A program made the position numbers and the translations under genes. Of a DNA stretch of 64,000 bases, positions 4,776-25,617 are shown piece after piece (the first letter of the stretch is position 1; each line of letters opens with the position of its first letter). This DNA comes from Micromonospora sp. M71_S20 (lineage in GTDB: Bacteria > Actinomycetota > Actinomycetes > Mycobacteriales > Micromonosporaceae): assembly GCF_003664255.1 (NCBI RefSeq), contig NZ_RCCV01000001.1, forward strand, positions 3,658,001 to 3,722,000, written 5' to 3'. Under the pieces are notes generated by a model. It was not told the origin of the DNA. It searched no databases and saw nothing but the letters and a program-made list of their open reading frames with translations.

Positions 4776-5225
4776 GTGGAACCGACACCGGACCGTCTCG
4801 CCACGAAGGCGAGCTGGCTCATCACCCAGACGGCCGTGCACGCGAGGCGGTTCGTCTCCCAGGGGTTCGCCGCCGCCGGCGCGCGGGGCTACCACTACCG
4901 GGTGCTCGCCGCGTTGCGGGAGTTCGGCCCCGCGAGCCAGGCGGAGCTGGGGCGGCGCTGCCGCATGGACCGCAGCGACGTCGTCGCGGCCGCGACCGAG
5001 CTGGAGGGGGAGGGCTTCGTCGGGCGCAGCGCCGACCCGACGGACCGCCGACGCAACATCGTCACCCTCACCGAGGCGGGCGTCCGGCAGCTCCGGCGGC
5101 TGGACCGCGCGCTCGACGACGTGCAGGAGGAGCTGCTCGCCCCGCTGTCGGCCAGCGAGCGGCAGGCCCTGGTCGCGTTGCTCGGCAAGGTGCTCGACCA
5201 TCACGGCGGCGCACCGACATCGTGA
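4776..5225 (+). CDS. MarR-family transcriptional regulator
   Basis: A 149-residue protein (GTG start; product begins MEPTPDRLATKASWLITQT). The winged-helix region is PASQAELGRRCRMDRSDVVAAATELEGEGFVGRSADPTDRRRNIVTLT. The DPTDRR wing and the following TLTEAG are classic MarR features, and the terminal helices (LDDVQEELLAPLSASERQALVALLGKVL) form the dimer interface. It very probably binds the two CGTTGG-N5-CCAACG palindromes just upstream, repressing itself and the divergent NTF2-like gene. The inducing ligand is unknown. The start was chosen because it fits the family N-terminus and lies at the right distance from a -10 box. Confidence 0.9.
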   Translation: MEPTPDRLATKASWLITQTAVHARRFVSQGFAAAGARGYHYRVLAALREFGPASQAELGRRCRMDRSDVVAAATELEGEGFVGRSADPTDRRRNIVTLTEAGVRQLRRLDRALDDVQEELLAPLSASERQALVALLGKVLDHHGGAPTS

Positions 5226-5584
5226 TCAGCCGCCCGTAGGGCCGCGACGTCGCCCGTTCGACGTCGTCGGTCCGCCACTGCTGAGCCCGTACCGCCATGC
5301 CCACCGCCGGGCCGGGGCCGACTGCGGCCGCCGACGGTCCCGGTGTGACCTAGATCATCAACTGCTCTCCCGCCGGGACCGCGACCGACCGTCCGCAGCG
5401 CGCTCGGACCGGCCGGACCTGCGACTTCCGCGGATCGCGTCCTCTCGTCCCGCCGACGCCGGTTCGGCTGACCGGCCGATGGGTCGCTGTCGTGTCGGTC
5501 ACTACTGTTAGCGTGCCCTCGTTGTCGATCACGGCCGATTCCTCACGAAATCTGGCTGTTCTGCCACTGCGGAGGGTATTCCTG
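5226..5584. other. intergenic region, 359 bp
   Basis: CGACGTCG (5245-5252) pairs with CGACGTCG (5259-5266) around a 6-nt loop, 20 nt after the marR stop, and is a likely terminator. The rest must hold the promoter of the MoxR-cluster genes, but I cannot identify convincing -35 and -10 boxes. Confidence 0.4.
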
Positions 5585-6442
5585 ATGGGCTGGCTACCGG
5601 TGGGGGACTCGTACGAGGTCTCTCTCGTGGACGGAAAGGTGGCGGCCCGGTCCATCGGCCCGCGGGCCGGCGGCCGTCCGCTGAAGACTCTGCCGAAGGC
5701 GCTGCGGGACGACCCGGAGGTCGACCGGCTGCGCCAGCTCGCCCAGTGGCTCGACCGGCACGCCGCGGAGTGCCTGGCCCGGGTCGACGCCTGGGTGGTG
5801 TCCTCGCTGCCGGTGCCGACGGGGCTGCTGGCCCGGGTCTGGCCGGACCCGGCCTGGCAGGACGCGTTGCGCGACCTCGTGGTGCTCGGGGACGACCCGG
5901 CCGCGCCGGGCTTCCTGCGCGACGTCACCGACACCGGCGACCTGCGCGTGGTCAACCTCGACGGGGAGACCGTCCGGCTCTCGCCGGTCAGCGCCACGCT
6001 GCCCCATCCGGTGCGCCTGCCCGAGCTGGCCGACCTGCGCGAGTTCGCCGACGAACTGGACGTCTCCCAGCGGATCGAGCAACTGCACCGGGGCACCTGG
6101 GGCAGACCCGACGACCTGAAACAGCGCGACACGACCATCACCGACTTCCGCGGCACCGCCGTGCCGAACCGGCTCGCCGCCCGGGCCGCCACGCGCGGCT
6201 TCCGGGTCTCCGGCTCGCAGGTCAAGTGCCGGGTCTGGGAGGCCGGCCGCACGGTCGAGGCCGCCCTGTGGTTCGACGAGGACTACTGGGACTCGGAGGC
6301 GACCCTGGGCAACCTCTCCTGGTCGGTGGTGGACGGGCCGACGTTGCGGTTGACCGAGGTCGGGCCGGTGGCCTGGTCGGAAGGAATGCGGATGGCGACG
6401 GCCCTGTCCGGCGCCGTGACCGGAACGGGGAAGAAGGCGTGA
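5585..6442 (+). CDS. DUF4132-like protein of the MoxR/VWA cluster
   Basis: A 285-residue protein starting at ATG 5585 with GGAGGG 8 nt upstream; the frame extends 31 codons further but without a ribosome site. The central part reads FLRDVTDTGDLRVVNLDGETVRL, then LPHPVRLPELADLREFADELDVSQRIEQLHR, then VPNRLAARAATRGFRVSG. This order (a strand, an LxHPVxLPE helix start, a QxxEQLxR motif, then an RGxR motif) matches the DUF4132 domain found at the C-terminus of E. coli YehI, here as a stand-alone protein. The assignment is from remembered family patterns. Function is unknown. It overlaps the next gene by GTGA or lies 5 nt from its ATG, so the two are translated together. Confidence 0.7.
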   Translation: MGWLPVGDSYEVSLVDGKVAARSIGPRAGGRPLKTLPKALRDDPEVDRLRQLAQWLDRHAAECLARVDAWVVSSLPVPTGLLARVWPDPAWQDALRDLVVLGDDPAAPGFLRDVTDTGDLRVVNLDGETVRLSPVSATLPHPVRLPELADLREFADELDVSQRIEQLHRGTWGRPDDLKQRDTTITDFRGTAVPNRLAARAATRGFRVSGSQVKCRVWEAGRTVEAALWFDEDYWDSEATLGNLSWSVVDGPTLRLTEVGPVAWSEGMRMATALSGAVTGTGKKA

Positions 6443-6447
6443 CCGGG

Positions 6448-9400
6448 ATGACGACGACGGCTGACGATGGCGCGGTCGAGAACCTGCTGACCGCCGGCGC
6501 GGTGCTGCCGGCCGACACCGCCGGGGCCGGTGACCGGGCGGTGCCCCTCACCGCCCGCACCTACCGGCACCCGGCCCTCGACGACCGGCCGGTGGTCCGC
6601 CTGGTCGACGCCGCCCTGGGCGAGGGCGAGGACATCGCCGTCGGGTTCCTCGGCCTGTCTCCCGGCGCCGAGCCGGTCGTCGTCGGGCTGGGTCCCCGCC
6701 GACCGCTGGCCTTCCCGGAGTGGGTGCTGGTGCACCACCCGGCGGACGGCCGGCACGCGTTGGCGGTGGTGCCGGAGTTGCAGAAGCTGGCCAAGCAGGT
6801 GCGGTCGCGGCCGAAGGCCGCCCTGGACGGACACCAGAGCATCGCCGACCGGCTCGCCCGTACGCTGCCGCACCTCCTGCCGACGTTCTTCGAGCAGGCG
6901 GCGCGGGTGTTCCTGGCCGCCGGGCAGGACGCGTACGCGACGCAGCTGTTCAACAAGGCGCGCAAGGCGGAGGCGCAGCACGGCCTGCCGGTCGACCTGG
7001 ACCGGCTGGACGAGGTCTACGTGGAGTTCGCCTCGGCCAAGGTGGTGTCCGCGACCGCGTTGGCCGGCTACGCCAAGGAGTTGTCCGCCCAGTTGCCGGC
7101 CGACGAGGCGCTGGAGCGGTTCTGCCGGCTGGCACTGCGGGCCGCGACCGCCGGCGTGGTTCCGTCCACCCAGTCGGCCGCCGTGGTGAACCGGCTGGTC
7201 CGGGCCGCCACCAAGGCCGCCGGCAAGGCCGGGGCCGCCGCCGTCGCCGAGCGTGAGGCGGCCTATCTGACCGAGCTGCTCCGGCTGCCGGTGGCCGCCG
7301 AGGCGCCGGCCGGCTGGTGGAAGGCGCACCTGCCGGCGCTGACGGCGCTGGCCGGTCGCGACCCGGCGATCCGCGGCAGCCTGCTCGACCTGATGCCCGC
7401 CGGCCGGGACGACCTGGTCACCTGGCTGGCCCTGCTGACCGACACCGGTGCGCTCGCGGGGCTGTCCGACCCGGACGTGCCGGACCCGGCCCGCCCGCAG
7501 GACGGCTCCGTCGGCTGGCTGCGCCGCTTCGTGAGCCGGGTCAACTCCGGCCACCAACGCCGTCGGCTGCCGCAGCTGTACCCGCTCGTCGAGCGGATGG
7601 CCGACCGGCTGCGCGTCGAGCTGGCCGACAGCGGCGAGACCCTCGGGGCCGACGGGGACCTGGAACTGCTCGACCTGCTGCTCGCCCTCGACCTGCCGGT
7701 GGCCGCGCCGAAGGAGCACGAGGCCCTGGACCTGGCGAGCTGGGTCACGCGTGGGGGAGAGCGCGACCTGCTCGCCGTCGCCGGCGACGACCGGTTCACC
7801 GGTGCCCTGCGCCGGGGCCTCGACCAGCTCGACGACCAGCAGGCCGCCCTGCGCCGGATGGTCGAGACGCCGGGCATCCGGCCGATGCTGATCGACTGGC
7901 TGCGGGCCCGCATCCGCGACCGGTTCGCCGCCGGCCTGCCGTACCTGCCGGCGTCGGTGGACTGGCTGGGCAGGCTCCCGGTCGAGGCGCTGCGCCTGGT
8001 GTCCGACGAGCTTGACGGAACCGGTGAGCCCGGTCGGGGCGGCGACGTCGGGCAGGCCCTCGGCGTCGACCTCGCCGAGCGCGTCGCCCGCAGCCTGCGC
8101 GGCGGGATCCTCGACGAGTTGGGCTGGCCGGACTGGGAACTGGCCTGGCAGGAGGTGACCGGCGGCGACCGTCGGATCGAGGTGGTCCGGCAGGAAGCCT
8201 GGCCGTACGTGATCCTGGGCGGGCCGACCACGGTGCGCGTGATCGGCGCCGAGGGCATCGTGCTCCGCCACGACCTGCGCATCCCGGCCGGCGACATGTG
8301 GGGTCAACCCGGCTACCACTACGTCGACGGTCAACTGCTTGTCTACTGGCGTTCCAAGGCGCTCGACTACGACCTGCGGGGCTACTGGCACTCGTCGCCG
8401 GGCGAACCGCAGCTCATCCAGGGCCGTCACCACGGCAAGCAGCCGCGCGGGAAGCAGATCACCCTGCCGCTGGCCGGCGGCGGGCGGACCACCGGCGACG
8501 GCGTGCTGCACGCCGGTGACACGGCCGTCCCGTCCGAGCTGCCGGTCATCACCGACGGCACCTCGCACTGGGTGTACCGGCACAGCGAGGAGGACGACGC
8601 CTACGGCTGGCGCGAGTACGACCCGGTCGCCAACACCCACGGCCGGCGCGGCCTGCCCCGGTTCCTGGCCGACCTCCCGGTCGACGGAAGCCACCTCCGG
8701 GAGTCGGCCAGCTGGCTGCGGCCGGCCCTGTCCGACCGGGCCACCCCGGCCGCCGTCCCGGTGGACGGGCTGCTCGGCTGGCGGGTGGTCACGCTGCCGG
8801 ACGGCTCGGTACGCGGTGAGGACCTGGCCGGTCGTACCGTCACCGTGGCCGCCGGCCAGGAACCGATTGCGGCGCTGGTGCTGCCCGGCGACGACCGGCC
8901 GCGTGCCGTGCTCCATGGTCCCGTCCTGGTCGACCCGGACGGGATGGTGTCGGCCGCCGCCGGACCGCCGTCCAGCCGGGACTACAGCCCCGGCGCGGTT
9001 CCGCTGCCGGCACGGCAGTTCCTCGGCAACATGCTGCCCCGCGACCCGGCCGGCTCCACCGCCCTGCGCCGGATGGACCGGGAGACCGCCGCCGCGCTGC
9101 TGAAGGCCGCCCTCGACGAGCGCCGCGCCGCCCTGGCCGAAGAGGCCGCGCGGGCCGCAGCCCGCGCGGCGCGATCCGGGTTGACCGCGGCCACGCAGGC
9201 CGTCACCGGCCTTCCCGTCGCGGTTCCGGCGACCATGGTTGGCGGCGCCGGCTCCGGGCCCGCCACCACCGGCGCGACCGCTGACGAGGACGACACGGAC
9301 GCGCTGGTCGAGCTGGTCCGCTCGACGCTGCCGGCCGTCAGCCACGACGCCGTGCTGACGGGGGTGGCCGGGGTGCTGCGGCTGGCCGCCCGGGTGCGCA

Positions 9401-11496
9401 CGGACCTGGACGCGGTGACCGAGCGGCTCACCAGGTCGTTGTCCGCCCCGGCGGCGGTGGCGCCGGCGGTCACCGTGACCGGACCCACCGACCGGCAGCT
9501 CAACGCGGCGCTGGACGGCCTGCGTGGCGCGGCCCACGGGGCGGGCACCGCGACCCACGCCTTCACCCAGTTCCAGGCGTTCACCACCCAGTGGTCCACC
9601 GCCGGCGGGGGCGCCTCCGCCGTACGCCTGCACCTCGACGGGCCGCCGCTGCCGTCCGCGCTGGACTGGTGGTCCCTGCTCGGCGGGCTGGCCGCCGTCG
9701 CCTACCGGGCCGTCGCGGCGGTCACCCCGGACGAGCACCGGGAGACGCTGCGCGCCCTGCTCGCGGCGCTGGACCGGCTTGACCTGACCGCGGCGGCCGC
9801 GCCGGGGCGCTGGCGCCGGTGCAGGCTGCACCTGCGCGACGACGACCTGAAGAACCCCGACGGCTCGCGCCGCTACCCGAGGCCGGGCATCCTGCCGTTG
9901 CCCGACGGGGCGTTCCTCGCCGTCCTCAACTCCAGGGGCACGGCCACCGGCTACTTCTTCGACGCGCTGCACCACGACCCGGCGGGCGTGTTCGCCGTGC
10001 CCGAGCCCTACACGGCGCAGTCCTCGGAGCCGGTCGGTGACGAACGGCCGGCCGGCTGGCTGGCCGGTTTCCTCACCGAGGCGGCCGCGCGCGGCCCGCT
10101 GCCCTGGCGGCCGGAGGCGGCCGAGCAGTTCGCCGAGCTGACCGGCGTCACCCCCACCGCCGCGAAGCTGCTGCTGGCCGGCCTTCCGTACGTGGACTCG
10201 GCGAACACCGTGCCGACCGAGCTGCGCAAGGCGCTCGGGATCAGGCAGGTCGGGGAGGTCAAGCTGGCCTTCGGGGTGCTGAGGGAGGCCAGGCCGGGAC
10301 TGCGGCGGGCCGTGGTCTCGGCGCTGCTGCCGGAGGACCCGGCCCGGCTGTGGACCGACGGCCCCGACGTGGCCGCCGCCGCGGCGGTGTGGAACGCCGC
10401 CCTGGGACGCCGGGTGGTGGTGCCCGAACAGCTGCTCGCCGAGGCGACGCGCACGGTCCGCACCGGCTGGGAGCCGGCCAAGGCGTTGCCGGCGCTGCTC
10501 GACCCGGCCCGTTCGACCGAGCTGAGCACCGACCTGGCCTTCGAGATCAGGGGCGACCGGGTCCGGCCGGTCGACGGCCGCGCGGCGGGCTTCACCGGTC
10601 ACGTGCTGCGCTCCACGGTCGCCCTGGCGGCCTGGGTGGCCCACCACACGCCGGCCGGCGACGCGTGCCGGGCTGCGCTGCCCGCCGCGCTGGCCGCGAT
10701 CCGGGACCGGCTGGCCAACCCCGGCCTGTTGCTCGACCTCGACCAGTACGTCTCCCTGCCCGCGTTCCGGCAGGTGGCGGGCACCCCGTCGGAGACCGGC
10801 CCCGGCTGGGAACGGTACGGCGCCATCGTGCTGTCCACCCACGACAGCCAGCCGTCGCCCGCGCTGCGGCCGGACCTGCTCGACGCCGACGGGTCCGACC
10901 CGTACCTGCCGGCGCTGCGCGGTGACGCCGCCAAGCCGTACCCGGTCGAGGTGGCGCTGCGCCTGGTCCGCGACCCACGCTTCGCGGCGCTGCTCGGCGA
11001 TCCGGGGGAGCCGGGCGGCGGCGCGCGGGCGGCGGACGGCACCTGGTGGCCGCAGGATCCGACCCGGTCGGTGCCGGACCTGGTCGCCGAGGTGGCCGGG
11101 GCACACGGCCTGGGCGCCGACGCGGCGGCGGTGTACCTGATGCTGCTGGCCATGCCGGATCCGACCGACCGCAACACGGCGAAGTGGACCGGCTGGAAGC
11201 CGGCCCGGCTGAAGGCGGCCCGCGCCGAACTGGCCGGCACCGACCTGGTCGTCGAGGCCAGCCGGTCCCGGGCCGGCCGCTCGCTGTTCCTGCCCGGCCC
11301 CTGGCTGGAACGCGGCAGCGGGCAGGCGCCGATCGAGGGCTGGAAGGTGACCCTGTTCGACCTCGCACCCGACGGCACGGCCGCGCTCGGCGTGACCGTA
11401 CCGTTCGAACCGGCCGCCGAGCTGCACCGGCGGGCCTGGCAACGCCTGCGCGACGGCGACCGGCCCCGCTTCGACAACCTGCCCACCCGCCGCTGA
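6448..11496 (+). CDS. very large uncharacterised protein of the MoxR/VWA cluster (1,682 aa)
   Basis: The start is either ATG 6448 (AAGAAGG 10 nt upstream) or GTG 6439, which overlaps the previous stop. The N-terminal 700 residues are Leu/Ala-rich helical sequence that looks repeat-like (LPHLLPTFFEQAARVFLAAGQDAYATQLFNKA resembles a TPR-type hairpin). Residues about 590-900 are strand-rich with Trp/Tyr/Gly motifs (WPYVILGGPTTVRVIG, GYHYVDGQLLVYW, HWVYRHSEEDD), suggesting a beta-propeller or repeated beta domain. The C-terminal half is again mostly helical, with Ala-rich linkers. I recognise no enzyme motif, signal peptide or membrane segment. It may be the target-recognition or scaffold component handled by the MoxR ATPase. 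This is inference from position only. Confidence 0.75.
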   Translation: MTTTADDGAVENLLTAGAVLPADTAGAGDRAVPLTARTYRHPALDDRPVVRLVDAALGEGEDIAVGFLGLSPGAEPVVVGLGPRRPLAFPEWVLVHHPADGRHALAVVPELQKLAKQVRSRPKAALDGHQSIADRLARTLPHLLPTFFEQAARVFLAAGQDAYATQLFNKARKAEAQHGLPVDLDRLDEVYVEFASAKVVSATALAGYAKELSAQLPADEALERFCRLALRAATAGVVPSTQSAAVVNRLVRAATKAAGKAGAAAVAEREAAYLTELLRLPVAAEAPAGWWKAHLPALTALAGRDPAIRGSLLDLMPAGRDDLVTWLALLTDTGALAGLSDPDVPDPARPQDGSVGWLRRFVSRVNSGHQRRRLPQLYPLVERMADRLRVELADSGETLGADGDLELLDLLLALDLPVAAPKEHEALDLASWVTRGGERDLLAVAGDDRFTGALRRGLDQLDDQQAALRRMVETPGIRPMLIDWLRARIRDRFAAGLPYLPASVDWLGRLPVEALRLVSDELDGTGEPGRGGDVGQALGVDLAERVARSLRGGILDELGWPDWELAWQEVTGGDRRIEVVRQEAWPYVILGGPTTVRVIGAEGIVLRHDLRIPAGDMWGQPGYHYVDGQLLVYWRSKALDYDLRGYWHSSPGEPQLIQGRHHGKQPRGKQITLPLAGGGRTTGDGVLHAGDTAVPSELPVITDGTSHWVYRHSEEDDAYGWREYDPVANTHGRRGLPRFLADLPVDGSHLRESASWLRPALSDRATPAAVPVDGLLGWRVVTLPDGSVRGEDLAGRTVTVAAGQEPIAALVLPGDDRPRAVLHGPVLVDPDGMVSAAAGPPSSRDYSPGAVPLPARQFLGNMLPRDPAGSTALRRMDRETAAALLKAALDERRAALAEEAARAAARAARSGLTAATQAVTGLPVAVPATMVGGAGSGPATTGATADEDDTDALVELVRSTLPAVSHDAVLTGVAGVLRLAARVRTDLDAVTERLTRSLSAPAAVAPAVTVTGPTDRQLNAALDGLRGAAHGAGTATHAFTQFQAFTTQWSTAGGGASAVRLHLDGPPLPSALDWWSLLGGLAAVAYRAVAAVTPDEHRETLRALLAALDRLDLTAAAAPGRWRRCRLHLRDDDLKNPDGSRRYPRPGILPLPDGAFLAVLNSRGTATGYFFDALHHDPAGVFAVPEPYTAQSSEPVGDERPAGWLAGFLTEAAARGPLPWRPEAAEQFAELTGVTPTAAKLLLAGLPYVDSANTVPTELRKALGIRQVGEVKLAFGVLREARPGLRRAVVSALLPEDPARLWTDGPDVAAAAAVWNAALGRRVVVPEQLLAEATRTVRTGWEPAKALPALLDPARSTELSTDLAFEIRGDRVRPVDGRAAGFTGHVLRSTVALAAWVAHHTPAGDACRAALPAALAAIRDRLANPGLLLDLDQYVSLPAFRQVAGTPSETGPGWERYGAIVLSTHDSQPSPALRPDLLDADGSDPYLPALRGDAAKPYPVEVALRLVRDPRFAALLGDPGEPGGGARAADGTWWPQDPTRSVPDLVAEVAGAHGLGADAAAVYLMLLAMPDPTDRNTAKWTGWKPARLKAARAELAGTDLVVEASRSRAGRSLFLPGPWLERGSGQAPIEGWKVTLFDLAPDGTAALGVTVPFEPAAELHRRAWQRLRDGDRPRFDNLPTRR

Positions 11497-11513
11497 CCCA
11501 CCCCTGACGCGGT

Positions 11514-11555
11514 GGTGGTGTCCGCGACGACCTGCCCGGCCGTCGCGGCACCACC
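11514..11555 (+). terminator. 14-bp stem-loop between the large protein and the MoxR gene
   Basis: GGTGGTG and CGCGACG (11514-11529) pair with CGTCGCG and CACCACC (11541-11555) around an 11-nt loop, with a small internal mismatch. It fills part of the only sizeable gap (119 bp) inside the cluster, so it could attenuate read-through or protect an mRNA end. Confidence 0.5.
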
Positions 11556-11615
11556 GGGCCGCCAACCCCTGTCCCGACCCACCCCCATCCGAACCAGAGA
11601 GATCGAGGAACGCCC

Positions 11616-12806
11616 GTGACCGTGACGGAACACGTCCGCCCCACCGTGGCGCCGGAGACCGCCGCCCAGGTCCTCTCCGCCGAGCAGCGGTACGCCGACG
11701 AGCTGGCCTTCCTGGCCGCGTACGACGACGGCGCCCGGCCGCCGGGCTGGGCACTGACCCCGCGCGCCGTGGTCACCTTCATCCAGGGCAGCGACGGCGA
11801 GGCGTTGAAGCTGCCCGCCGACCGGCGCACCGGCCCGGACGGCGCCGAACTGCCGGCCAGCATGACCATCCCGGCGAAGTTCGTCGGCGAGCGGAGCCTC
11901 GTCGAGCGGTGCGTGGTCACCCTGGCCGGCGAGCGGGGCCTGCTGCTGGTCGGTGAGCCCGGTACCGCCAAGTCCATGCTCTCCGAGCTGCTGGCCGCCG
12001 CCGTCTGCGGCACCAGCGCGCTGACCGTGCAGGGCACCGCCGGCACCACCGAGGACGCCTTCCGCTACGGCTGGAACTACGCCCTGCTGCTCGCCCAGGG
12101 CCCGACCCCGCAGGCGCTGGTCGACTCGCCGGTGCTGACCGCCATGCGCACCGGCCGGGTGGTGCGCATCGAGGAGGTCACCCGCTGCCTGCCCGAGGTG
12201 CAGGACGCGCTGGTGTCCATCCTGTCCGACCGGCGGATGAACGTGCCGGAGCTGTCCGGCACCGAGGACGGGCTGATCCGCGCCGTGCCCGGGTTCACCG
12301 TGATCGCCACCGCCAACCTGCGGGACCGGGGCGTGTCGGAGATGTCCTCGGCCCTCAAGCGCCGGTTCAACTTCGAGACCATCCACCCGATCTCGGACGC
12401 GGACGTCGAGACCGACCTGGTCCGCCAGCAGGCCACCGCCGCCGTGCAGCGCGCCGGCGCGGCGTACACGGTGGACGACGCGGTGCTGGACGCCCTGGTC
12501 ACCGTGTTCCGCGACCTGCGTTCCGGCCGGTCGGGCGAGGGCTGGGACGTGGAGCGGCCCGGCACGGTCATGTCCACCGCCGAGGCGGTGCAGGTGGCGG
12601 TGTCGCTCGGCCTGGCGGCCGCGTACCTGCCCGACGGGGACGCGCTCGACCTGGTGCCCGGGCACCTGCTCGGCGTGGTCCGCAAGGACGACCAGAACGA
12701 CCACGCCCGCCTGCTCGGCTACTGGGACGGTCCGGTCCGTCGCCGCGCCGAGGACGGCTCGGCGATGTGGCGCCGGCTCTGGGACCTGCGGGAGAACCTG
12801 CGGTGA
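11616..12806 (+). CDS. MoxR-type AAA+ ATPase (YehL-like)
   Basis: A 396-residue AAA+ protein with a GTG start and GAGGAA 5 nt upstream. Walker A is GEPGTAKS at residues 113-120. The Walker B region reads RVVRIEEVTRC (181-191): the usual hhhhDE is IEE, so the Asp is replaced by Glu. Sensor 1 is TVIATAN (228-234), followed by SALKRRFNFE, which carries the arginine-finger and sensor residues. MoxR ATPases usually act with a VWA-domain partner as chaperone-like remodelling machines. Here the VWA partner is encoded by the next gene, which overlaps by GTGA, and a SWIM protein follows. The closest described arrangement is E. coli yehL-yehM-yehP-yehQ. Confidence 0.88.
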   Translation: MTVTEHVRPTVAPETAAQVLSAEQRYADELAFLAAYDDGARPPGWALTPRAVVTFIQGSDGEALKLPADRRTGPDGAELPASMTIPAKFVGERSLVERCVVTLAGERGLLLVGEPGTAKSMLSELLAAAVCGTSALTVQGTAGTTEDAFRYGWNYALLLAQGPTPQALVDSPVLTAMRTGRVVRIEEVTRCLPEVQDALVSILSDRRMNVPELSGTEDGLIRAVPGFTVIATANLRDRGVSEMSSALKRRFNFETIHPISDADVETDLVRQQATAAVQRAGAAYTVDDAVLDALVTVFRDLRSGRSGEGWDVERPGTVMSTAEAVQVAVSLGLAAAYLPDGDALDLVPGHLLGVVRKDDQNDHARLLGYWDGPVRRRAEDGSAMWRRLWDLRENLR

Positions 12807-15800
12807 CGACCCTCTCCAGCCCACCGACCGGTGCGGCCCCGGCGACCGCCGACCCGGTGGGAGCCGACGCGACGTCGGCCGATCCGCGTGCCGTGGTCGA
12901 CGCGCTCGCCGGTTCGGTGCGGCCGTACCTGATCGGGGTGCGGCACCACAGCCCGGCGCTGGCGGCGGCGGTCCCGGCGCTGCTGGACGCCGCCGGGGCC
13001 GAGGTGGTCTGCATCGAGTTGCCGGCCGACTTCCAGCGCTGGCTGCCGTACCTCTCCGATCCGGCCGCGCGGGCCCCGCTGGCCCTGGTCGGCAGCCACG
13101 GCGCGGACGGGCCGATGGGCTTCTACCCGTTCGCCGACTTCTCCCCGGAGCTGGCCGCGATCCGCTGGGCCCGGCAGCGCGGCGTGGAGGTGGTCTGCTG
13201 CGACCTGCCGCTGGCCGACCCCGGCTGGACCGCCGGCCCCACCGACCCCGGCCCGACAGCCGGCGCCGACCCGACTGCCGGTGGCGAGCCCGCACCGGAC
13301 GCGGGGGAGCCGGTGCCCGGCCTGCGCCGGTCCTACGCCGCCGCGCTCAGTGCCAGCGGCACCGGCCGGGACGGCGACGACCTGTGGGACCGGGTGGTCG
13401 AGGTGCGCGCCCCGGGCTGCCCGCCCGAGGCGGTCCGCCGGGCCGCGCTCGGCGTCGGCTGGGCGATGCGTACCGACAGCGCCAACCGCGACGGCGTGCC
13501 GGCCCGGGACCTGGCCCGCGAGCGGCACATGCGCCGGGTGCTGGCCGAAGCCGGCGTCGACGGCCGGCGGGTCGCCGCCGTCATCGGCGCCTTCCACGCC
13601 CCGGCCCTGGTCACCACCCCGTCGACCGCCGAGGTCACCGTCGCGTCCGCCCGGCCCGGCACCGCCGCGGCCGATCCCGTCCGCTCCGTGACGACTGCGC
13701 CCCGACCGGCCGCCACCGACGGCGGCGGCACGGCGGTCACCTCGCTGGTGCCGTACGCGTTCGACCTGCTCGACTCCCGGTCCGGCTACCCGGCCGGGAT
13801 CCGCGACCCCCGCTGGCAGCAGTCCGTCTTCACCGCCGCCGGCGACCCGGAACGGATCCGGGCCGCCGCGGCCCGCGCGGTCACCGACCTGTGCCGGGAA
13901 CTCCGCGCCGCCGGCCACACCGCCGGCACCGGTGAGGCCACCGAGACGGTACGGCTCGCCGACGACCTGGCCCGGCTGCGGGACCTGCCCGCCCCCGGCC
14001 GGGGCGAGGTGCTGGAGGCGGTGACCACCGTGCTCGGCCAGGGCGAACTGCTCGGCCGCGGCCGGGCGCTGGCCAAGGCCCTGGAGAGCGTGCTGGTCGG
14101 CGCCGAACGGGGCCGCATCGCCCCCGGCACGCCGCGCTCCGGGCTCGGCCCGGCGGTCGAGGCGGAACTCACCACGCTGCGGCTGCCCCACCCGGACAGC
14201 CCGAAGGCTCGCGAGGTGCGCCTCGACCCGCTGCGCACCGAGCTGGACGGGCGGCGGGAGATCCTGCTGCAACGCCTCCAGGTCTGCGGCGTCGGCTACG
14301 GCGAGCCGATCGCGGTGTCCGGCACCGGCGACGGCGCCGCCCTGACCACCCGCTGGCAGCTGGTCTGGACCCCGTCCGTGGCGGCCCGGCTGGACCTGGT
14401 CGGCGTACGGGGGGTGACCGCGGCGCTGGCCGCGGCCGGCACCCTGCGGGAGCGGTTCCGCCGGGAGGCCGCCGACGGCGGACCCACCGCCGCGCAGCTG
14501 CTCACCGGCCTCCGCGACGCCGCCCGGTGCGACCTGCCGGAGCTGGTCACCGACCGGCTCGAGCTGGCCGCCACGGTGCTGCCGGGCACCGGCACGCTGC
14601 CCGAGCTGCTGGCCGCACTGGACCTGCTGGAGGCGCTGCGCCGCGAACACCTGCCCGGCACGACCCCCGACGGCCGGGCCCGGGCGGCCGAGCTGGCCGT
14701 CGTGCTGCTGGACGCGGCGGTGCGCGGGCTGCCCGGCCTGGCCGGCAGCGACACCCCGGCGGACGCCGCCGCGCTGGTCGACCTCGCGGTCCGCGCCGGC
14801 GAGGACCGCATCGGGCTACGCCTGGACGAGGCCCTCGACCACCTGGCCCGCACCGGTTCGCCGCTGATCCAGGGCGCCGCCCTGGCCGCCCGGGTGCTGC
14901 TCGACCTGACCGACCTGGAGACCCTGGGCACCCGGGTGGCCGGCTGGGTCGACGCGGCGACCGGACCGGACACCCGACGGCACCTGCACCGGCTGCTCGG
15001 CGGCCTGCTCACCGGGGCGCACCCGCTGTTGCAGTCCGCCCCGGCCGCGCTGGACCCGCTGCTGGAGCGGATCGAGCGGCTTCCCGACGCCGACTTCCTG
15101 GACCGGCTGCCCGCGCTTCGCGGCGGGTTCGACGTGCTCACCCCGGCGGCCCGGGGCCGGCTGCTGGACACCGTCACCGAGCGGCTGGGCGACCGGCTCG
15201 ACCTGAGCCTGTCCGCCCCGCCGGAGCTGCTGGCCCGCTGGGCCGCCGCCGACGCGGCCGGCCGGGCCGCCCTGCTCGCCCGCCGCATCCCTGTCCCGGG
15301 CACGCCGGCCGGCCCCGCCGACGCCGACGCCGATGCCGGCGCCGCGCCCGGGCCGGGCACGCCGGACGCCCGGCTCACCGCCACCGACCGGTGGCGGCTG
15401 CTGCTGGGCCGCCAACCCGACCGGTTGCCGGCCGACGCCCGCCGCTACGCCCGCGCCCTGGACGAGCTGTACGGGGCGGGTCAGGGCGAGGGCGCCACCG
15501 ACCTCGGGCAGGCGGCCGGCGGCGGTCAGGAAGCCTCCTTCCCGACCGCCCGCGAGTGGGCCGACGAACTCGAGGCGCTGTTCGGCACCGCCGTACGCGA
15601 GGAGGTCATCGCCCGGGCGGCCGAGAACGGCCGTACCGACGTGCTCACCGAACTCGACCCGGCCGCGGTACGCCCCTCGATGGAGCTGCTGACCTCGGTG
15701 CTGTCGCTGGCCGGCGGCCTGCCCGAGGGGCAGCTCGCCAAGCTGCGGCCCCTGGTGCGGAGACTGGTCGAGGAGCTGACCAGGCAGCTGGCCACCCAGG

Positions 15801-16483
15801 TGCGCCCGGCGCTGACCGGGCTGACCAACCCGCGTCCGACCAGCCGTCCCGGTGGCCGGATCAACCTCGCCCGTACGCTGCGGGCCAACCTCGCGCACAC
15901 CCAACGGCTCGGCGACGGCCGGACGGTGGTGGTGCCGCAACGCCCGGTCTTCAACAGCCGCACCCGCAAGGAGGCCGACTGGCGGCTGGTGCTGGTGGTC
16001 GACGTGTCCGGCTCGATGGAGGCGTCGGTGGTGTGGTCGGCGTTGACCGCCGCCGTACTGGCCGGGGTGCCCACCCTGTCCACCCACTTCCTCGCCTTCT
16101 CCACCGAGGTGGTCGACCTGACCGACCGGGTCGACGACCCGCTGTCGCTGCTGCTGGAGGTGCGCGTCGGCGGCGGTACGCACATCGCCGCCGGGCTGGC
16201 CGCCGCCCGCTCGCTGGTGACCGTGCCGAGCCGCACCATCGTCGCGGTGGTCAGCGACTTCGAGGAGGGTTATCCGCTGGCCGGGCTGCTCGGTGAGGTC
16301 CGCACGCTGGTCGGTTCGGGCGTGCACCTGCTCGGCTGCGCCGCGCTGAACGACAGGGGAGCGCCCTGCTACTCGGTGCCGGTAGCCGAGCAGCTCGTCG
16401 CGGCCGGGATGCCGGTCGCCGCTCTCAGCCCGCTCGAACTCGCCCGCTGGGTGGGCGACCGCATCCGCGGAGGATCACGTTGA
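12803..16483 (+). CDS. DUF5682-VWA fusion protein (YehM-YehP type)
   Basis: A 1,226-residue protein starting at GTG 12803, overlapping the ATPase stop. The N-terminal part (YLIGVRHHSPALAAAVPALLDAAGAEVVCIELPADFQ) is the DUF5682 start, a ChaN/TraB-like strand-helix pattern with a conserved RHHSP. A long helical middle (about 350-1030) follows. The C-terminal VWA domain begins WRLVLVVDVSGSM, with MIDAS residues D1067-x-S-x-S1071, a Thr in GGGTHIAAG and an Asp in VVSDFEEG. All three metal-site elements are intact. E. coli encodes these parts as two proteins (YehM about 760 aa, YehP about 380 aa), so this is a fusion of about the summed length. It probably works with the MoxR ATPase. Confidence 0.88.
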   Translation: MTTLSSPPTGAAPATADPVGADATSADPRAVVDALAGSVRPYLIGVRHHSPALAAAVPALLDAAGAEVVCIELPADFQRWLPYLSDPAARAPLALVGSHGADGPMGFYPFADFSPELAAIRWARQRGVEVVCCDLPLADPGWTAGPTDPGPTAGADPTAGGEPAPDAGEPVPGLRRSYAAALSASGTGRDGDDLWDRVVEVRAPGCPPEAVRRAALGVGWAMRTDSANRDGVPARDLARERHMRRVLAEAGVDGRRVAAVIGAFHAPALVTTPSTAEVTVASARPGTAAADPVRSVTTAPRPAATDGGGTAVTSLVPYAFDLLDSRSGYPAGIRDPRWQQSVFTAAGDPERIRAAAARAVTDLCRELRAAGHTAGTGEATETVRLADDLARLRDLPAPGRGEVLEAVTTVLGQGELLGRGRALAKALESVLVGAERGRIAPGTPRSGLGPAVEAELTTLRLPHPDSPKAREVRLDPLRTELDGRREILLQRLQVCGVGYGEPIAVSGTGDGAALTTRWQLVWTPSVAARLDLVGVRGVTAALAAAGTLRERFRREAADGGPTAAQLLTGLRDAARCDLPELVTDRLELAATVLPGTGTLPELLAALDLLEALRREHLPGTTPDGRARAAELAVVLLDAAVRGLPGLAGSDTPADAAALVDLAVRAGEDRIGLRLDEALDHLARTGSPLIQGAALAARVLLDLTDLETLGTRVAGWVDAATGPDTRRHLHRLLGGLLTGAHPLLQSAPAALDPLLERIERLPDADFLDRLPALRGGFDVLTPAARGRLLDTVTERLGDRLDLSLSAPPELLARWAAADAAGRAALLARRIPVPGTPAGPADADADAGAAPGPGTPDARLTATDRWRLLLGRQPDRLPADARRYARALDELYGAGQGEGATDLGQAAGGGQEASFPTAREWADELEALFGTAVREEVIARAAENGRTDVLTELDPAAVRPSMELLTSVLSLAGGLPEGQLAKLRPLVRRLVEELTRQLATQVRPALTGLTNPRPTSRPGGRINLARTLRANLAHTQRLGDGRTVVVPQRPVFNSRTRKEADWRLVLVVDVSGSMEASVVWSALTAAVLAGVPTLSTHFLAFSTEVVDLTDRVDDPLSLLLEVRVGGGTHIAAGLAAARSLVTVPSRTIVAVVSDFEEGYPLAGLLGEVRTLVGSGVHLLGCAALNDRGAPCYSVPVAEQLVAAGMPVAALSPLELARWVGDRIRGGSR

Positions 16484-18396
16484 CGGACCGCACAGCCACT
16501 GCCGTGGACACCGACCGGTTGCCGCCGGTGCTGCCGGCGGTCGCCGCCGCGGCGGTGGCGGCCCTGCCACCCCGGCTGCACAAGCGGCTGGACGCCGCCG
16601 TCGAACGGCTGGCCGGCATACCGGTCGGCCCGGTCGACGGGGGCGTGTCGGTCGACTGCGGCCCGGAGTCGCTGGTCACCCTGACGCCCGGAGCGACCGG
16701 CGTGGTCACCGACCCGCACCAGGCGCGGTGCAACTGCCTGCTGGCGCCCCGCTGCCTGCACCGCGCCGCAGTCCTTCTCGCCTGCCCGGTCGCCGACCCG
16801 GCCACCCACCCCGATCCGGCGTCCGCCGCCGCCGCGGCGTCGTCGACGTCGGGCCGCGCCGACGCGGCGTCCGGCCGCACCGGGCGTACCAGGAAATCGG
16901 CTGGCGCGGCCGGCGGCGCGGCACCGACGAAGGCGCAACGGGCCGCCGCCGGCGCGCTGTGGCGGGCGGCCGCCGCGGTGCTCGCGGCCGGCGTGCCGGC
17001 CGCCGGGGCGGTGCCCCAGGCCGAACTGCTGCGGGCCGCCCACGGCGCCCGGCTGGCCGGCCTGCCGCGGGCCGAGAGCGCCGCGCTGCGCACGGTGCGT
17101 GGACTGCGCGCGCAGCGGGGACGGCAGAACGGCCACCGGTTGGCCGAGCTGGTCGAGGTGCTGCACGACCTGCTGTACGTCGCCGGCCGGCTGGCCGCCG
17201 GCGATGCCGACCCGGCGCTGGTCGGCGTCCTGCGGCGGGCCTACCAGCCGGACGGCACCCTGGAGGTGCACGGCGTCTGCCGGGAGCCTGTGATCAGCGC
17301 GACCGGGTACGCCGGGGTGGTCACGCACCTGGTCGCCGCCGACGGGCGCCAACTGTCCTTCGGCGACGTGAAACCGGGCGGTCCGGACCGGGCGCGGGAC
17401 TGCGCCCGGGCGGTCACCGAGATGGGCGCGGTCGCGGTCAACCACGCGGTGCTGGCCCGTGGCGGCCTGCGGATCACCGGCACCACCGTCTCCCCGGACG
17501 GCCGGCTCGGTGCCGGTAAGGGGGTACGGGCCACCCCGCTCGCCGGGACCGACTGGTCCACCGGGCCGCTGGCGCACCTGTTCGCCCGCCCGCTCGCCGA
17601 GGTGGTGACCGCGCAACTCGCCACCGACGACCCGGAGGACCCGGCCCGGGCGGGGACCGCGTTGTTCGGCGGCGACCTGATGGTGGTGGGTGCCGTCGGT
17701 GACCAGGTGCTGGCCCGCGAGCTGGTCCCCGCCACCGACGCGGGACGCGAGCGTGCGCCGGTGCCGGACGGGCCGGTGATCCGGCTGGTGCCGGTCGACT
17801 CCCATCCGATGCTGGCCCACGTGGCCAACCTGCGGCGGCTCGCCTCCCGGCCCGGCCTGCGGGTCCGGGTGGTCGGTCGGCTGGACCCGGACCGGGCCAG
17901 CACGCTGCGACCGCTCGCGGTCGGCCCGGTGCCCGGTGCCGCCGCCACGTTGCGGCTGCCGGCGGACTGGCACGGCCGGGCGGACCTCGGCTACGACGAG
18001 ATCCAGGGCGGCCACCTGCCGCCGCGCGACCCGGCCGAGGTGACCGAACCGGTTCTCGCCGTCGGCGCCGACGCGGTTGCGGAGTCCCCGCTGTGGCGGG
18101 TCCGCCGCCTGGTGGAGTTGGCCGTCTCCGGTGGTCGCCGCGCCGTCGCCGAGGCGGCCCGCGGCGACGGCACCGGCCTGGCCGGCCCGCTGCGCCGCGC
18201 CGGCTTCACCACCGCCGCCGCGCTCACCACCGGGTTGGCCGACGAGTCCGACCGGCGCGGCCGGGACGTGTTTGGCCGGCGTACCGATCCCGACCCGGAC
18301 CGGTACGCGTGGGCCTGGCTCGCCGCCACCGCCCACCTCGCCGCCGCCGAGCGGGAGCTGATCCGGTCCTCCTGGACGACGCCACCCGTCGGCTGA
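16480..18396 (+). CDS. SWIM zinc-finger protein (YehQ-like)
   Basis: A 638-residue protein starting at TTG 16480, with GGAGGA 5 nt upstream and TTGA overlap with the VWA gene. The SWIM motif is CNCLLAPRCLHR, giving C84, C86, C92 and H94 (CxC-x5-CxH). Nearby are an Ala/Ser/Thr-rich linker (105-150) and a helix resembling SWIM-associated regions. The remaining ~480 residues include strand-rich segments (GVCREPVISATGYAGVVTHLVAADGRQLSFGDV) of unknown fold. SWIM fingers bind DNA or proteins, and YehQ of E. coli has a similar size (about 680 aa). It is the last gene of the cluster. Confidence 0.85.
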   Translation: MTDRTATAVDTDRLPPVLPAVAAAAVAALPPRLHKRLDAAVERLAGIPVGPVDGGVSVDCGPESLVTLTPGATGVVTDPHQARCNCLLAPRCLHRAAVLLACPVADPATHPDPASAAAAASSTSGRADAASGRTGRTRKSAGAAGGAAPTKAQRAAAGALWRAAAAVLAAGVPAAGAVPQAELLRAAHGARLAGLPRAESAALRTVRGLRAQRGRQNGHRLAELVEVLHDLLYVAGRLAAGDADPALVGVLRRAYQPDGTLEVHGVCREPVISATGYAGVVTHLVAADGRQLSFGDVKPGGPDRARDCARAVTEMGAVAVNHAVLARGGLRITGTTVSPDGRLGAGKGVRATPLAGTDWSTGPLAHLFARPLAEVVTAQLATDDPEDPARAGTALFGGDLMVVGAVGDQVLARELVPATDAGRERAPVPDGPVIRLVPVDSHPMLAHVANLRRLASRPGLRVRVVGRLDPDRASTLRPLAVGPVPGAAATLRLPADWHGRADLGYDEIQGGHLPPRDPAEVTEPVLAVGADAVAESPLWRVRRLVELAVSGGRRAVAEAARGDGTGLAGPLRRAGFTTAAALTTGLADESDRRGRDVFGRRTDPDPDRYAWAWLAATAHLAAAERELIRSSWTTPPVG

Positions 18397-23019: not shown

Positions 23020-25617
23020 TCAGGGCAGGATCTCGACGTACCCGTCGGTCGCGTGCACGCGAATCCGCTGCCCGTCCCGGATCAGCGTGGTCGCCTGCTC
23101 CACGCCGACGAGGGCGGGCAGGCCGTACTCCCGGGCGACCACCGCCCCGTGGGTCATGAGGCCGCCCACCTCCGTCACCAGTCCCTCGATCGCGACGAAC
23201 AGGGGTGACCAGCTCGGATCGGTGTAGGCGGTGACCAGGATGTCGCCCGGTTCGAGATCGGCCTTGGCCAGGTCCAGGATGACGCGGGCCCGCCCCTCGA
23301 CGACCCCGCCGGAAACCGGGAGGCCGACCAGCGCGCCGGTCGGCACATCCTCGCGTCGGTACGCGCCGGCGATGCCCTCACCCTCCGACGTGAGCACTCG
23401 GGGCGGGATGAGCCTCTGGTACGCCCTGAACGCTTCCTTCCGCCGCTGGATGAGCTGATCGTCCACCTTGCTCGTGCGCACGACGTCGGAGAGTTCCTGG
23501 AACGTGAGGTAGAAGATGTCCTCCCTCTCCGGAAGCACGTCGGCCCGCACGAGACGTTCGGCCTCCTCGAGCAGGGCCTGCTTGTAGATGAAGTAGCGGC
23601 TGACGATGGCGTACTTCGGATACTCCCGGTACCCGACGAAGGTTCGGACCCGGTCGATCACCCGCTTCGTCTCTTCCGCCTTCCGCTCCCCGTCCGGCAG
23701 GGCCCGCAAGCGCGCCAGAACCTCCTGTTCCTTCTGTTCCGCCTGCTGGCGCCCCTGCGCGAAGCGCCGCTTGCGAGCGCCCGGCGCGAGGTTCCTGATG
23801 TTGTCGAGGATGACGGGCACGAGCGTGCTGGGGCGTTCGCTCCAGCGCGGCCTCGTGATGTCGATCTCGCCGGCGCAGCGCATGCCGTACGCGTCGAGAA
23901 AGGTCCGGATGGCGTCTCGCGCTTCCTGTCCGCCCGGGAGCCCGGCCAGCTCATCCACGAAGCCCTCGTCCTCGACCTGCCGCAGGAAGGCCACGACCTC
24001 CGGGTACGGGCGGATGACGTCCGCGACGTCCAGCAGCGCCAGTCCCATCTCCGACGTGACGTTGTGGGGCGCGGACAACGTGAGCGCGTCGGCCGCGTTC
24101 TTCTCGCCCAGCCACTCGTGCAGCTTGTCGTTGAGCCACCACGTGGCCTCCATCCCCGCCATGATCGCCTGCATGTTGAGCGGATCACTGAGGGCGCGCT
24201 TGTGCTCCTCGAAGGCCTCCCGCAGGAAGTCGAACAGCGCCGGTCCGGATTTCGTCCGGATGTCGCGCTGCAGGGTGGCGACAGACGCCCGGCTGCGTTC
24301 GATCAGTTCGCTGACGATGGCCGGATCGGTCTCGATCGGGGCGGGCGCACCGCCGGCGGGCGGCCCTGCGGGACCCTGGTCGGGGAGCGACGGAACGAAG
24401 TCGCCGCGGTCGAGGACGGTCTCCAGCGCGTCCCTGACCAGTGGATCGGACCTGCCCACCATCTCCAGCAGACCGGCGCGGCTCGCGGGTGCGGCCAGGC
24501 GCCGGGTGACGTCGACGAACAGCCTCCCGCCGGCCTCGTGCATCGGCGCCATGGCCGTCAGCTGCCACATGGACACCCCGAGGGGCCTCATGGCGTCGGT
24601 CATCATCTGCTGGTGACCGACGGAGACGTAGACGTGGTTCTCTCCATCGCCCGTCTCGGGGATCGGGAACAGGGTGGTGATCGGCCGGCTCTGGACGATG
24701 TGGAAGTCGTCGTCGACCAGGCACCACTCGATGTCCTGGGGATGGCCGAAATGGGCTTCGATCCGCCGGCCCAACCGCACCAGCCGCAAGACCTGCGCAT
24801 CAGTCAGCGCCGGCTGCTCCTGCCGCTGTGGGTCGATCGCCTGTTCCGCCGTCCCGCCCGCCGGCAGGGCGTGGATGGCAAGTCGTTTGGCCGCGATCGC
24901 CTTTTCGATGATCTCATCGCCGCGCACCCGATAGGTGTCCGTGTTCACCAACCCGGAGACCAGAGCCTCGCCGAGGCCGAAGCTGGCCTCCACGGAGGCG
25001 ACCCTCCGGTTGGACGTGACGGGGTCGGCGGTGAACAGGACGCCGGCCGCCTGTGGAAAGACCATCCTCTGCACGACGACGGCCATGTGGACCGTGCGGT
25101 GGTCGATGCCGTTGCGTCGACGGTAGGTCACGGCCCGCTCGGTGAAGAGCGAGGCCCAGCACCGGCTGACGTGCTGGAGGATGGCCGCCGGCCCCATGAC
25201 GTTCAGGTACGTGTCCTGCTGGCCCGCGAAGGAGGCCGTCGGCAGGTCCTCCGCCGTCGCGCTGGACCGGACGGCACAGGCGGCTCGCTCGCCGAGCTGG
25301 GAGACAGCCCGGATGATCGCCGCCGCCACCTCGTCGGGGAGGAGTGTCGCTTCGATGCTCCGGCGGATCTGCGCACTGACTGTGCGGATCGACTCCCGGT
25401 CGTCCGGGTCCAGGCGCGACAGCTGGTCGAGCCGCTCGTCGATCGACGGCGTCTCGGCCATGATCCGCCGGAAGGCGTCCGTCGTCACGCAGAAGCCCGC
25501 CGGCACCCGGATGCCGCCGATCCGCGACAACGCCCCCAGGTGCGCGCCCTTGCCGCCGACGATCGCGACCTGCACGTCGTCCACGTCCTGGAGACCCAAC
25601 ACGTACTGCCCGGTCAT
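23020..25617 (-). CDS. rph: rifampin phosphotransferase (PEP-synthase-like)
   Basis: An 865-residue protein of the size and order of rifampin phosphotransferase: N-terminal ATP-grasp domain (VGGKGAHLGALSRIGGIRVPAGFCVT; RSSATAEDLPTASFAGQQDTYLN), a central rifampin-binding domain, and a C-terminal His swivelling domain with the phosphorylatable His in GLMTHGAVVAREYG at residue 823. Rph transfers the beta-phosphate of ATP to the C21 hydroxyl of rifampin and so inactivates it. The ATG at 25617 is marked by the family's N-terminus; its Shine-Dalgarno is weak. A rifamycin-associated element lies about 95 bp upstream. A general PEP synthase is the alternative, but length and context favour rph. Confidence 0.9.
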   Translation of the reverse strand: MTGQYVLGLQDVDDVQVAIVGGKGAHLGALSRIGGIRVPAGFCVTTDAFRRIMAETPSIDERLDQLSRLDPDDRESIRTVSAQIRRSIEATLLPDEVAAAIIRAVSQLGERAACAVRSSATAEDLPTASFAGQQDTYLNVMGPAAILQHVSRCWASLFTERAVTYRRRNGIDHRTVHMAVVVQRMVFPQAAGVLFTADPVTSNRRVASVEASFGLGEALVSGLVNTDTYRVRGDEIIEKAIAAKRLAIHALPAGGTAEQAIDPQRQEQPALTDAQVLRLVRLGRRIEAHFGHPQDIEWCLVDDDFHIVQSRPITTLFPIPETGDGENHVYVSVGHQQMMTDAMRPLGVSMWQLTAMAPMHEAGGRLFVDVTRRLAAPASRAGLLEMVGRSDPLVRDALETVLDRGDFVPSLPDQGPAGPPAGGAPAPIETDPAIVSELIERSRASVATLQRDIRTKSGPALFDFLREAFEEHKRALSDPLNMQAIMAGMEATWWLNDKLHEWLGEKNAADALTLSAPHNVTSEMGLALLDVADVIRPYPEVVAFLRQVEDEGFVDELAGLPGGQEARDAIRTFLDAYGMRCAGEIDITRPRWSERPSTLVPVILDNIRNLAPGARKRRFAQGRQQAEQKEQEVLARLRALPDGERKAEETKRVIDRVRTFVGYREYPKYAIVSRYFIYKQALLEEAERLVRADVLPEREDIFYLTFQELSDVVRTSKVDDQLIQRRKEAFRAYQRLIPPRVLTSEGEGIAGAYRREDVPTGALVGLPVSGGVVEGRARVILDLAKADLEPGDILVTAYTDPSWSPLFVAIEGLVTEVGGLMTHGAVVAREYGLPALVGVEQATTLIRDGQRIRVHATDGYVEILP

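Follow-up and report, generated by a model that had tools for sequence, protein, structure and literature searches.

A mobile five-gene unit around a YehL-type MoxR/VWA motor in Micromonospora, with a DUF5682 domain that looks like a TraB/TIKI-type enzyme

The Five-Gene Locus

The subject of this report is a gene cluster of Micromonospora sp. M71_S20 (NZ_RCCV01000001.1; host genome 7.8 Mb), found in a stretch of 64,000 nt that was analysed as a whole and is called the window here. At positions 5585-18396 of the window lie five plus-strand genes that encode, in this order, a DUF4132 protein, a very large protein (the giant), a MoxR ATPase, a fusion of DUF5682 with a VWA domain, and a SWIM zinc-finger protein. 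The gene set is real, well conserved and mobile, and it is carried by some soil actinobacteria and not by others. Its features are as follows (aa, amino acids).

5585..6442, plus strand: DUF4132-only protein, 285 aa, ATG at 5585, frame open from GTG 5492 (PF13569, E 2.8e-25)
6448..11496, plus strand: giant, 1,682 aa, ATG at 6448 (homolog search and partial structure model)
8092..9075, plus strand: predicted beta-propeller of the giant, about residues 549-876
11616..12806, plus strand: YehL-type MoxR AAA+ ATPase, 396 aa, GTG start (AAA_5, E 5.2e-37)
11952..11975, plus strand: MoxR P-loop GEPGTAKS (sequence; 82/82 relatives; also in YehL)
12803..16483, plus strand: DUF5682-VWA fusion, 1,226 aa, GTG at 12803 (PF18934, E 3.6e-207; PF05762, E 3.8e-63; single open frame)
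12887..13621, plus strand: putative TraB/TIKI-like alpha/beta domain at the DUF5682 N-terminus (structure model, conserved motifs, fold matches)
12944..12949, plus strand: His-His (H20 H21) of HHxP (invariant in alignments A2 and A5 and in 11 class representatives)
13016..13018, plus strand: Glu E44 in strand 2 of the DUF5682 N-terminus (invariant in A2, A5 and the 11 class representatives)
13517..13522, plus strand: Arg-Glu (R211 E212) of RExxM (invariant in A2 and the 11 class representatives)
13595..13597, plus strand: His H237 of GxxH (invariant in A2 and the 11 class representatives)
14234..15196, plus strand: predicted alpha-solenoid linking the enzyme-like domain to VWA (model residues ~450-770; helical-repeat matches)
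15788..16453, plus strand: VWA (CoxE-type) domain with metal ion-dependent adhesion site (MIDAS) motif, DxSxS, T, D (PF05762, E 3.8e-63)
16480..18396, plus strand: SWIM zinc-finger protein, 638 aa, TTG at 16480 (CxCx5CxH; Pfam SWIM sub-threshold)
16729..16761, plus strand: SWIM motif CNCLLAPRCLH (sequence)

The genes are tightly spaced. Five bases separate the DUF4132 stop from the start of the giant and 119 bases lie between the giant and MoxR, while the MoxR stop overlaps the fusion start (GTGA) and the fusion stop overlaps the SWIM start (TTGA). All five genes lie on the plus strand where the initial annotation of this DNA placed them, and Pfam likewise bears out the DUF4132-like protein, the MoxR ATPase and the joining of DUF5682 to an intact VWA domain that it described (E-values in the list). 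A promoter and terminator scan of positions 4800-5700, which covered the sigma-70 type only, gave nothing. Opposite the giant runs a minus-strand open reading frame of 1,823 aa (6283-11754); conservation sits in the plus frame, and the minus-strand frame is probably a GC-rich antisense frame.

Both the P-loop and the MIDAS motifs are intact, MoxR reads RIEEV at the Walker B position, and the VWA domain ends the fusion chain (residues 1008-1229 of 1238). When the whole fusion protein is searched in relatives, DxSGS is found in 74/76, GGGT in 76/76 and SD[FW] in 76/76. An unannotated phage record of 14 kb (MT835988.1, 9362-10168) holds a VWA match to the C-terminus of the fusion. For the SWIM protein the evidence is split: the motif CxCx5CxH is intact in the window and CxCx4-7CxH occurs in the SWIM protein of 73/76 relatives, but the Pfam SWIM score of 14.6 bits lies under the 19.6 cut-off. 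Domain searches thus find MoxR and VWA as annotated, and SWIM by its motif.

Conservation, Patchiness and Mobility

A scan of named genomes with the alignment of the giant gave 136 relatives, 80 of which were kept. These come from Streptomyces, Micromonospora, Streptosporangium, Plantactinospora, Nonomuraea, Kitasatospora, Wenjunlia, Actinocorallia and one further member of the Micromonosporaceae, all Actinomycetota. Among the named actinobacterial loci, 65 extend for 7.3 kb or more past the giant, and 62 of these hold all five genes; the count omits 15 loci that are shorter there, three of them complete anyway. Two of the three incomplete loci have lost parts (L059, L070), and in the third (L066) the genes are rearranged and the fetched sequence breaks off. 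In L059 (Streptomyces adelaidensis) and L070 (Kitasatospora), DUF4132, giant and MoxR are kept and much of DUF5682-VWA is gone. Co-occurrence in other genomes, which the initial annotation named as a check on its cluster, is therefore strong. The DUF4132 gene stands beside the giant in 90/90 loci, downstream rather than upstream in one (L066), and DUF5682 and VWA form a single protein in all 75 loci that hold all parts; the set examined includes ten loci from the family of the window that were chosen by DUF5682 score. The fusion, earlier taken as a distinguishing trait, is real, but it is fixed across these loci and not peculiar to this genome. Pairwise identities of the components correlate (r 0.81-0.94), to which shared species history contributes. 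The five genes, in short, keep together. Among other flanking genes, picked mechanically by frame and G+C content at third codon positions (GC3), the commonest family occurs in only 10/90 loci; no sixth gene recurs across the 90 loci as a nearby client enzyme of the kind known for the NorQ-NorD (NorQD) and CbbQ-CbbO (CbbQO) pairs.

The unit is distributed unevenly. The giant is found in 22/101 genomes of the window's genus, with an N-terminus 73-100% identical to that of the window in 11 of them and 41-45% identical in the other 11. Over the flanking sequence fetched, 17 of 18 relatives have no match of at least 150 bases to the flanks of the window; the eighteenth shares a single stretch. In Micromonospora HM5-17 the giant has 71% identity to its counterpart in Plantactinospora mayteni and 58% to the one in Micromonospora MP36, and the giants of two Plantactinospora are 57% identical to each other. 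Lateral transfer fits, because the HM5-17 giant is nearer to that of P. mayteni than to that of MP36. Fusion and giant also occur on five linear plasmids of Streptomyces; on the one whose sequence was read throughout, the five genes are all present and in order.

Patchy presence, varying surroundings, plasmid copies and several classes side by side (see below) are also what a conflict system, anti-phage or anti-plasmid, would be expected to show. In the sense of Kaur et al. (2020; PMC7159879), the propeller giant would be the sensor and MoxR/VWA would deploy DUF5682 as a toxic effector. The P-loop of the window, GEPGTAKS, fits the GXXXTAKS variant that these authors report in two of their four types of MoxR-vWA system; one of these includes a third protein in which TPR and beta-propeller regions occur. 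However, among the five proteins there is no PADLOC match beyond REase_II at E 0.028 for MoxR, no effector is recognised, the yeh set of E. coli K-12 is chromosomal, and the VWA of the window lacks the C-terminal propeller by which the beta-propeller type is defined. We regard a conflict system of this kind as an improbable account of the locus.

Kinship to the E. coli yeh Genes and to Other DUF5682 Clusters

MoxR, DUF5682 and VWA are the same parts as YehL, YehM and YehP of E. coli. MoxR and YehL share 46% identity over 373 aa (E 2e-96), and the family profile of MoxR matches YehL at 2.2e-112, YehL being the only MoxR subfamily in the comparison; YehL is one of two MoxR proteins in E. coli K-12 (PMC3893208). 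By BLAST the fusion is colinear with YehM (25% over 836 aa) and then YehP (41% over 249 aa), whose genes overlap in E. coli, so that the fusion joins their counterparts. The E. coli genes carry, in Pfam, DUF4132 (yehI, 2.1e-47), DUF5682 (yehM), VWA (yehP), SWIM (yehQ) and AAA (yehL), which agrees gene by gene with the separate counterparts that the initial annotation listed. The giant, the DUF4132 protein and the SWIM protein have no significant BLAST match to the Yeh proteins, and for the SWIM protein a profile comparison with YehQ gave no significant match either; DUF4132 is common to the window protein and YehI at the Pfam level. Literature searches found no function for the E. coli YehL cluster. 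The E. coli type of set can sit on plasmids too, because VWA and SWIM genes of the yehP/yehQ kind are carried by large E. coli plasmids and an Iodobacter plasmid (hits H13-H16 and H18).

DUF5682 is present in 47/61 genomes of the window's family and in 10/149 genomes across the phylum. The neighbours read in 20 loci, with Pfam run on ten chosen proteins, sort into four classes, labelled A to D in this analysis. Class A combines a SWIM-DUF5691 protein (seen in L037) with MoxR, DUF5682 and VWA, and class B is the five-gene set of the window. Class C has a YehI-like DUF4132 protein (with WGR in L039), MoxR, DUF5682, VWA and a sub-threshold SWIM protein (L035, L040), as in E. coli, and class D has VWA, MoxR and a weak DUF5682. 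The host genome itself holds a class D set (L024, G000:C1:4754144-4755964), with a weakly similar DUF5682 and a different gene order. In the class C-like locus L035 (124-7647), three adjacent genes encode relatives of the YehI-like DUF4132 protein found in L039, and one of the three is a C-terminal piece of 288 aa.

The Giant and Its DUF4132 Partner

The initial annotation called the giant unrecognised. This holds for searches of Pfam, NCBIfam and PADLOC, which gave no match, but part of the protein models as a beta-propeller. Its family is large (1,128 proteins match at E <= 0.001 among 7,979 candidates scored), with the closest proteins in Micromonospora, and Pfam on 13 members gave only a leucyl-tRNA-synthetase piece in one of them, at E 0.052. 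The structure model, built for residues 490-1682 from an alignment of 67 relatives, has a mean predicted local distance difference test score (pLDDT) of 85.5 and a predicted template modelling score (pTM) of 0.67. It supports a beta-propeller in the middle of the giant, with weak but consistent fold matches, and gives a mixed helical and beta C-terminal half. The giant was also considered as a YehI homolog and rejected: hhalign gave a probability below 1%, and BLAST and profile searches were null as well. Unlike the long YehI/MolR proteins, which carry DUF4132 at the C-terminus, the giant contains no DUF4132. In the window, DUF4132 protein and giant occupy the place upstream of MoxR that the YehI-like protein holds in class C and in E. 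coli.

The unit is modular, with a motor set and a DUF4132-plus-giant set, because the ten motor loci of classes A, C and D have no giant match at E 1e-4 and plasmids carry DUF4132 and giant-like pairs without motor genes. Such pairs lie on the Streptomyces nigrescens SNP1 plasmid (L158, 10818-15558) and on an Embleya plasmid (L159, about 11260-16625), with no match to MoxR, DUF5682, VWA or SWIM in the roughly 10 kb to each side. On a second Embleya plasmid the only match is a partial one to the giant. DUF4132 protein and giant may together form a separate module.

A further explanation is a DNA-damage or nucleoid stress response in which SWIM and DUF4132/MolR-type parts would attach the motor to DNA-protein complexes for remodelling. 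The class C YehI-like protein of L039 does combine WGR with DUF4132. In Deinococcus radiodurans, DUF4132 and WGR proteins increase when DdrO is depleted, and the article concerned names MolR as a member of the LexA regulon (PMC8533742). Several database sources also label the giant a 'DNA-binding protein'. However, Pfam finds no DNA-binding domain in the giant of the window or in the 13 members, and the name may have been passed on by transitive annotation. We regard a DNA-damage role as quite improbable.

The N-terminus of DUF5682

Structure models support a chain order of TraB/TIKI-like alpha/beta domain, alpha-solenoid and VWA in the fusion. The model used covers 1,198 aa and rests on an alignment from 49/64 trimmed class B loci and 38/120 listed relatives of a class A protein; in the solenoid (~450-770), most ten-residue blocks have a pLDDT of 80-98. 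The N-terminal domain carries the motifs HHxP, E, RExx[ML] and GxxH, which recur in 11 representatives of the four DUF5682 classes, YehM included, and PE is likewise among its conserved motifs. Some pieces of alignment A5 stop before RExxM and GxxH, which places both motifs outside the invariant list of A5. In a pattern search of 82 DUF5682 proteins, GxxH was missed in four (L028, L033, L065, L070), GxRHHxP, ExP and SPE were each missed in L119, and RExxM was missed in L070. The second DUF5682 of the host genome (L024) is uncaught by the motif pattern and lies outside the comparison of 11 representatives.

Two fold libraries point to TraB for this domain, with modest scores, and its invariant His and Glu residues lie at places that would fit the order seen in the TraB/TIKI/erythromycin esterase (Ere) proteins. 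Foldseek on the 1,198-aa model by itself returned matches filled by alpha-solenoids. Several results weigh against a TraB/TIKI-like domain. The row of fold matches from BFVD has a poor root-mean-square deviation, and sequence profiles show no significant similarity to TraB or Ere, with hhalign probabilities of 0.15-0.4% from profiles that are thin and one-sided. In addition YehI, an unrelated control, scores level with the best profile, Ere (hhalign scores against DUF5682: YehI 18.8, Ere 18.1, TraB/GumN 14.7, reversed Ere 13.1, giant 12.7, reversed TraB/GumN 12.5), and it takes a forced global alignment to bring the His and Glu residues into register with Ere. Proof of kinship with TraB/Ere from sequence failed. 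E. coli YbaP (TraB/GumN) served as the yardstick, alone and as a 9-row profile, and its PDB searches gave nothing useful. The TraB family PF01963 was found in 1/149 Actinomycetota genomes, on a contig that looks proteobacterial, and therefore no local TraB yardstick was available. The erythromycin-esterase family PF05139 occurs in 50/61 genomes of the window's family.

Models and motifs together give the N-terminal part of DUF5682 the look of an enzyme domain of the TraB/TIKI type. The initial annotation left the target of the cluster open; DUF5682 itself is a plausible client of the motor, since it seems to carry this domain. A different assignment would make MoxR and VWA a maturation chaperone of the NorQD/CbbQO kind that remodels or metal-loads an external enzyme, with DUF5682 as a substrate-binding platform only (an inactive TIKI-like or other fold). 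MoxR/VWA pairs of known function are indeed chaperones or metal inserters (PMC13036017; PMC3893208), and NorD too consists of an N-terminal domain, a linker and a VWA domain (PMC13036017). Yet no neighbour recurs as a client, the unit shifts between contexts whole, and the putative catalytic residues of DUF5682 recur in 11/11 representatives, which is unusual for a mere platform. An external client is accordingly unlikely.

A Proposed Mechanism

In the NorQD model, a finger of the VWA domain sits in the AAA+ pore, and ATP-driven rotation stretches the NorD linker between the N-terminal domain and VWA (PMC13036017). The three-part order of the fusion resembles this arrangement. By analogy, a MoxR hexamer would grip the VWA domain with its finger in the pore, and ATP use would twist the chain and move the solenoid linker. 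This movement may remodel or gate the fused enzyme-like domain, which would thereby be switched, loaded or presented to its substrate. The giant and its DUF4132 partner could act as a sensor or adaptor that delivers the trigger or the target, and the SWIM protein might bind nucleic acid or protein and tether the complex to it. The setting would be an accessory stress or conflict response rather than a housekeeping one. Taken as a whole, our favoured explanation, to which we give a probability of roughly 40%, is that the five genes form an autonomous unit that moves laterally and centres on a MoxR/VWA motor of the YehL type, which drives a fused enzyme-like domain, with giant and DUF4132 protein as sensor or adaptor and the SWIM protein as tether. 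Its function is inferred.

A broader proposal, and a rather doubtful one, is that in every YehL-type MoxR system, that of E. coli included, the enzyme is DUF5682. It would be a TraB/TIKI-like hydrolase switched on or off by the MoxR AAA+ ring through a VWA handle, here within one chain, and the DUF4132-plus-propeller giant would serve as a sensor module that can be exchanged. If true, this would represent a new mode of enzyme control by an AAA+ motor acting in cis. As far as the literature was searched, it is new to read DUF5682 as a domain of the TraB/TIKI kind on which the motor acts; the searches returned no match for DUF5682 and none for a SWIM zinc finger with MoxR. A catalytic-looking domain, fused in actinobacteria to the handle of the motor, makes of an obscure cluster a concrete question, namely which residues are needed and what the domain cuts or binds, and the conserved five-gene unit offers clean targets for deletion and reconstitution.

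Elsewhere in the window, a minus-strand gene (23020-25617) encodes a protein with PPDK_N and PEP-utilizer domains, an architecture that we take to be of the PEP synthase or rifampin phosphotransferase type.

Comparison with Known Systems

Several known systems share parts of this architecture. TraB/PrgY, TIKI and the erythromycin-esterase-like superfamily may resemble the N-terminus of DUF5682, to judge by a modest fold match and the order of His and Glu motifs, but there is no significant profile match and the window protein has a long solenoid and VWA attached. NorQ-NorD and CbbQ-CbbO likewise pair an AAA+ MoxR with a VWA protein. These serve a known enzyme, whereas the loci studied here have no recurrent client close by and the fusion begins with a part that looks TraB/TIKI-like.

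The MoxR-vWA beta-propeller ternary systems of Kaur et al. (2020; Pfam bpMoxR) share the GXXXTAKS P-loop and the combination of MoxR, VWA and a large third protein, which in the window has a predicted beta-propeller. In their vWA protein the vWA is strictly followed by a beta-propeller, whereas the chain of the window ends at VWA; bpMoxR scores 22.4 on the window against a cut-off of 27, and the text of that article makes no mention of SWIM or DUF4132. Clusters of SWIM, DUF5691, MoxR, DUF5682 and VWA (class A, L037; Deinococcus taeanensis, L161) share the motor, DUF5682, VWA and SWIM parts, but in these DUF5691 replaces DUF4132 and the giant, and DUF5682 and VWA are separate.

The closest likeness is to yehL-yehM-yehP-yehQ and yehI of E. 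coli K-12, with the related MoxR, colinear DUF5682 and VWA, a SWIM gene next to them and a DUF4132 gene upstream. In the window, however, DUF5682 and VWA are fused, DUF4132 is a separate small protein, the giant with its predicted beta-propeller has no detectable homology to YehI, and the SWIM protein lacks a significant BLAST match to YehQ. The locus is thus new as a variant of a known cluster type: much as the initial annotation had proposed, it is the YehL-type MoxR/VWA set in an actinobacterial form, in which two parts are fused and a very large protein is added.

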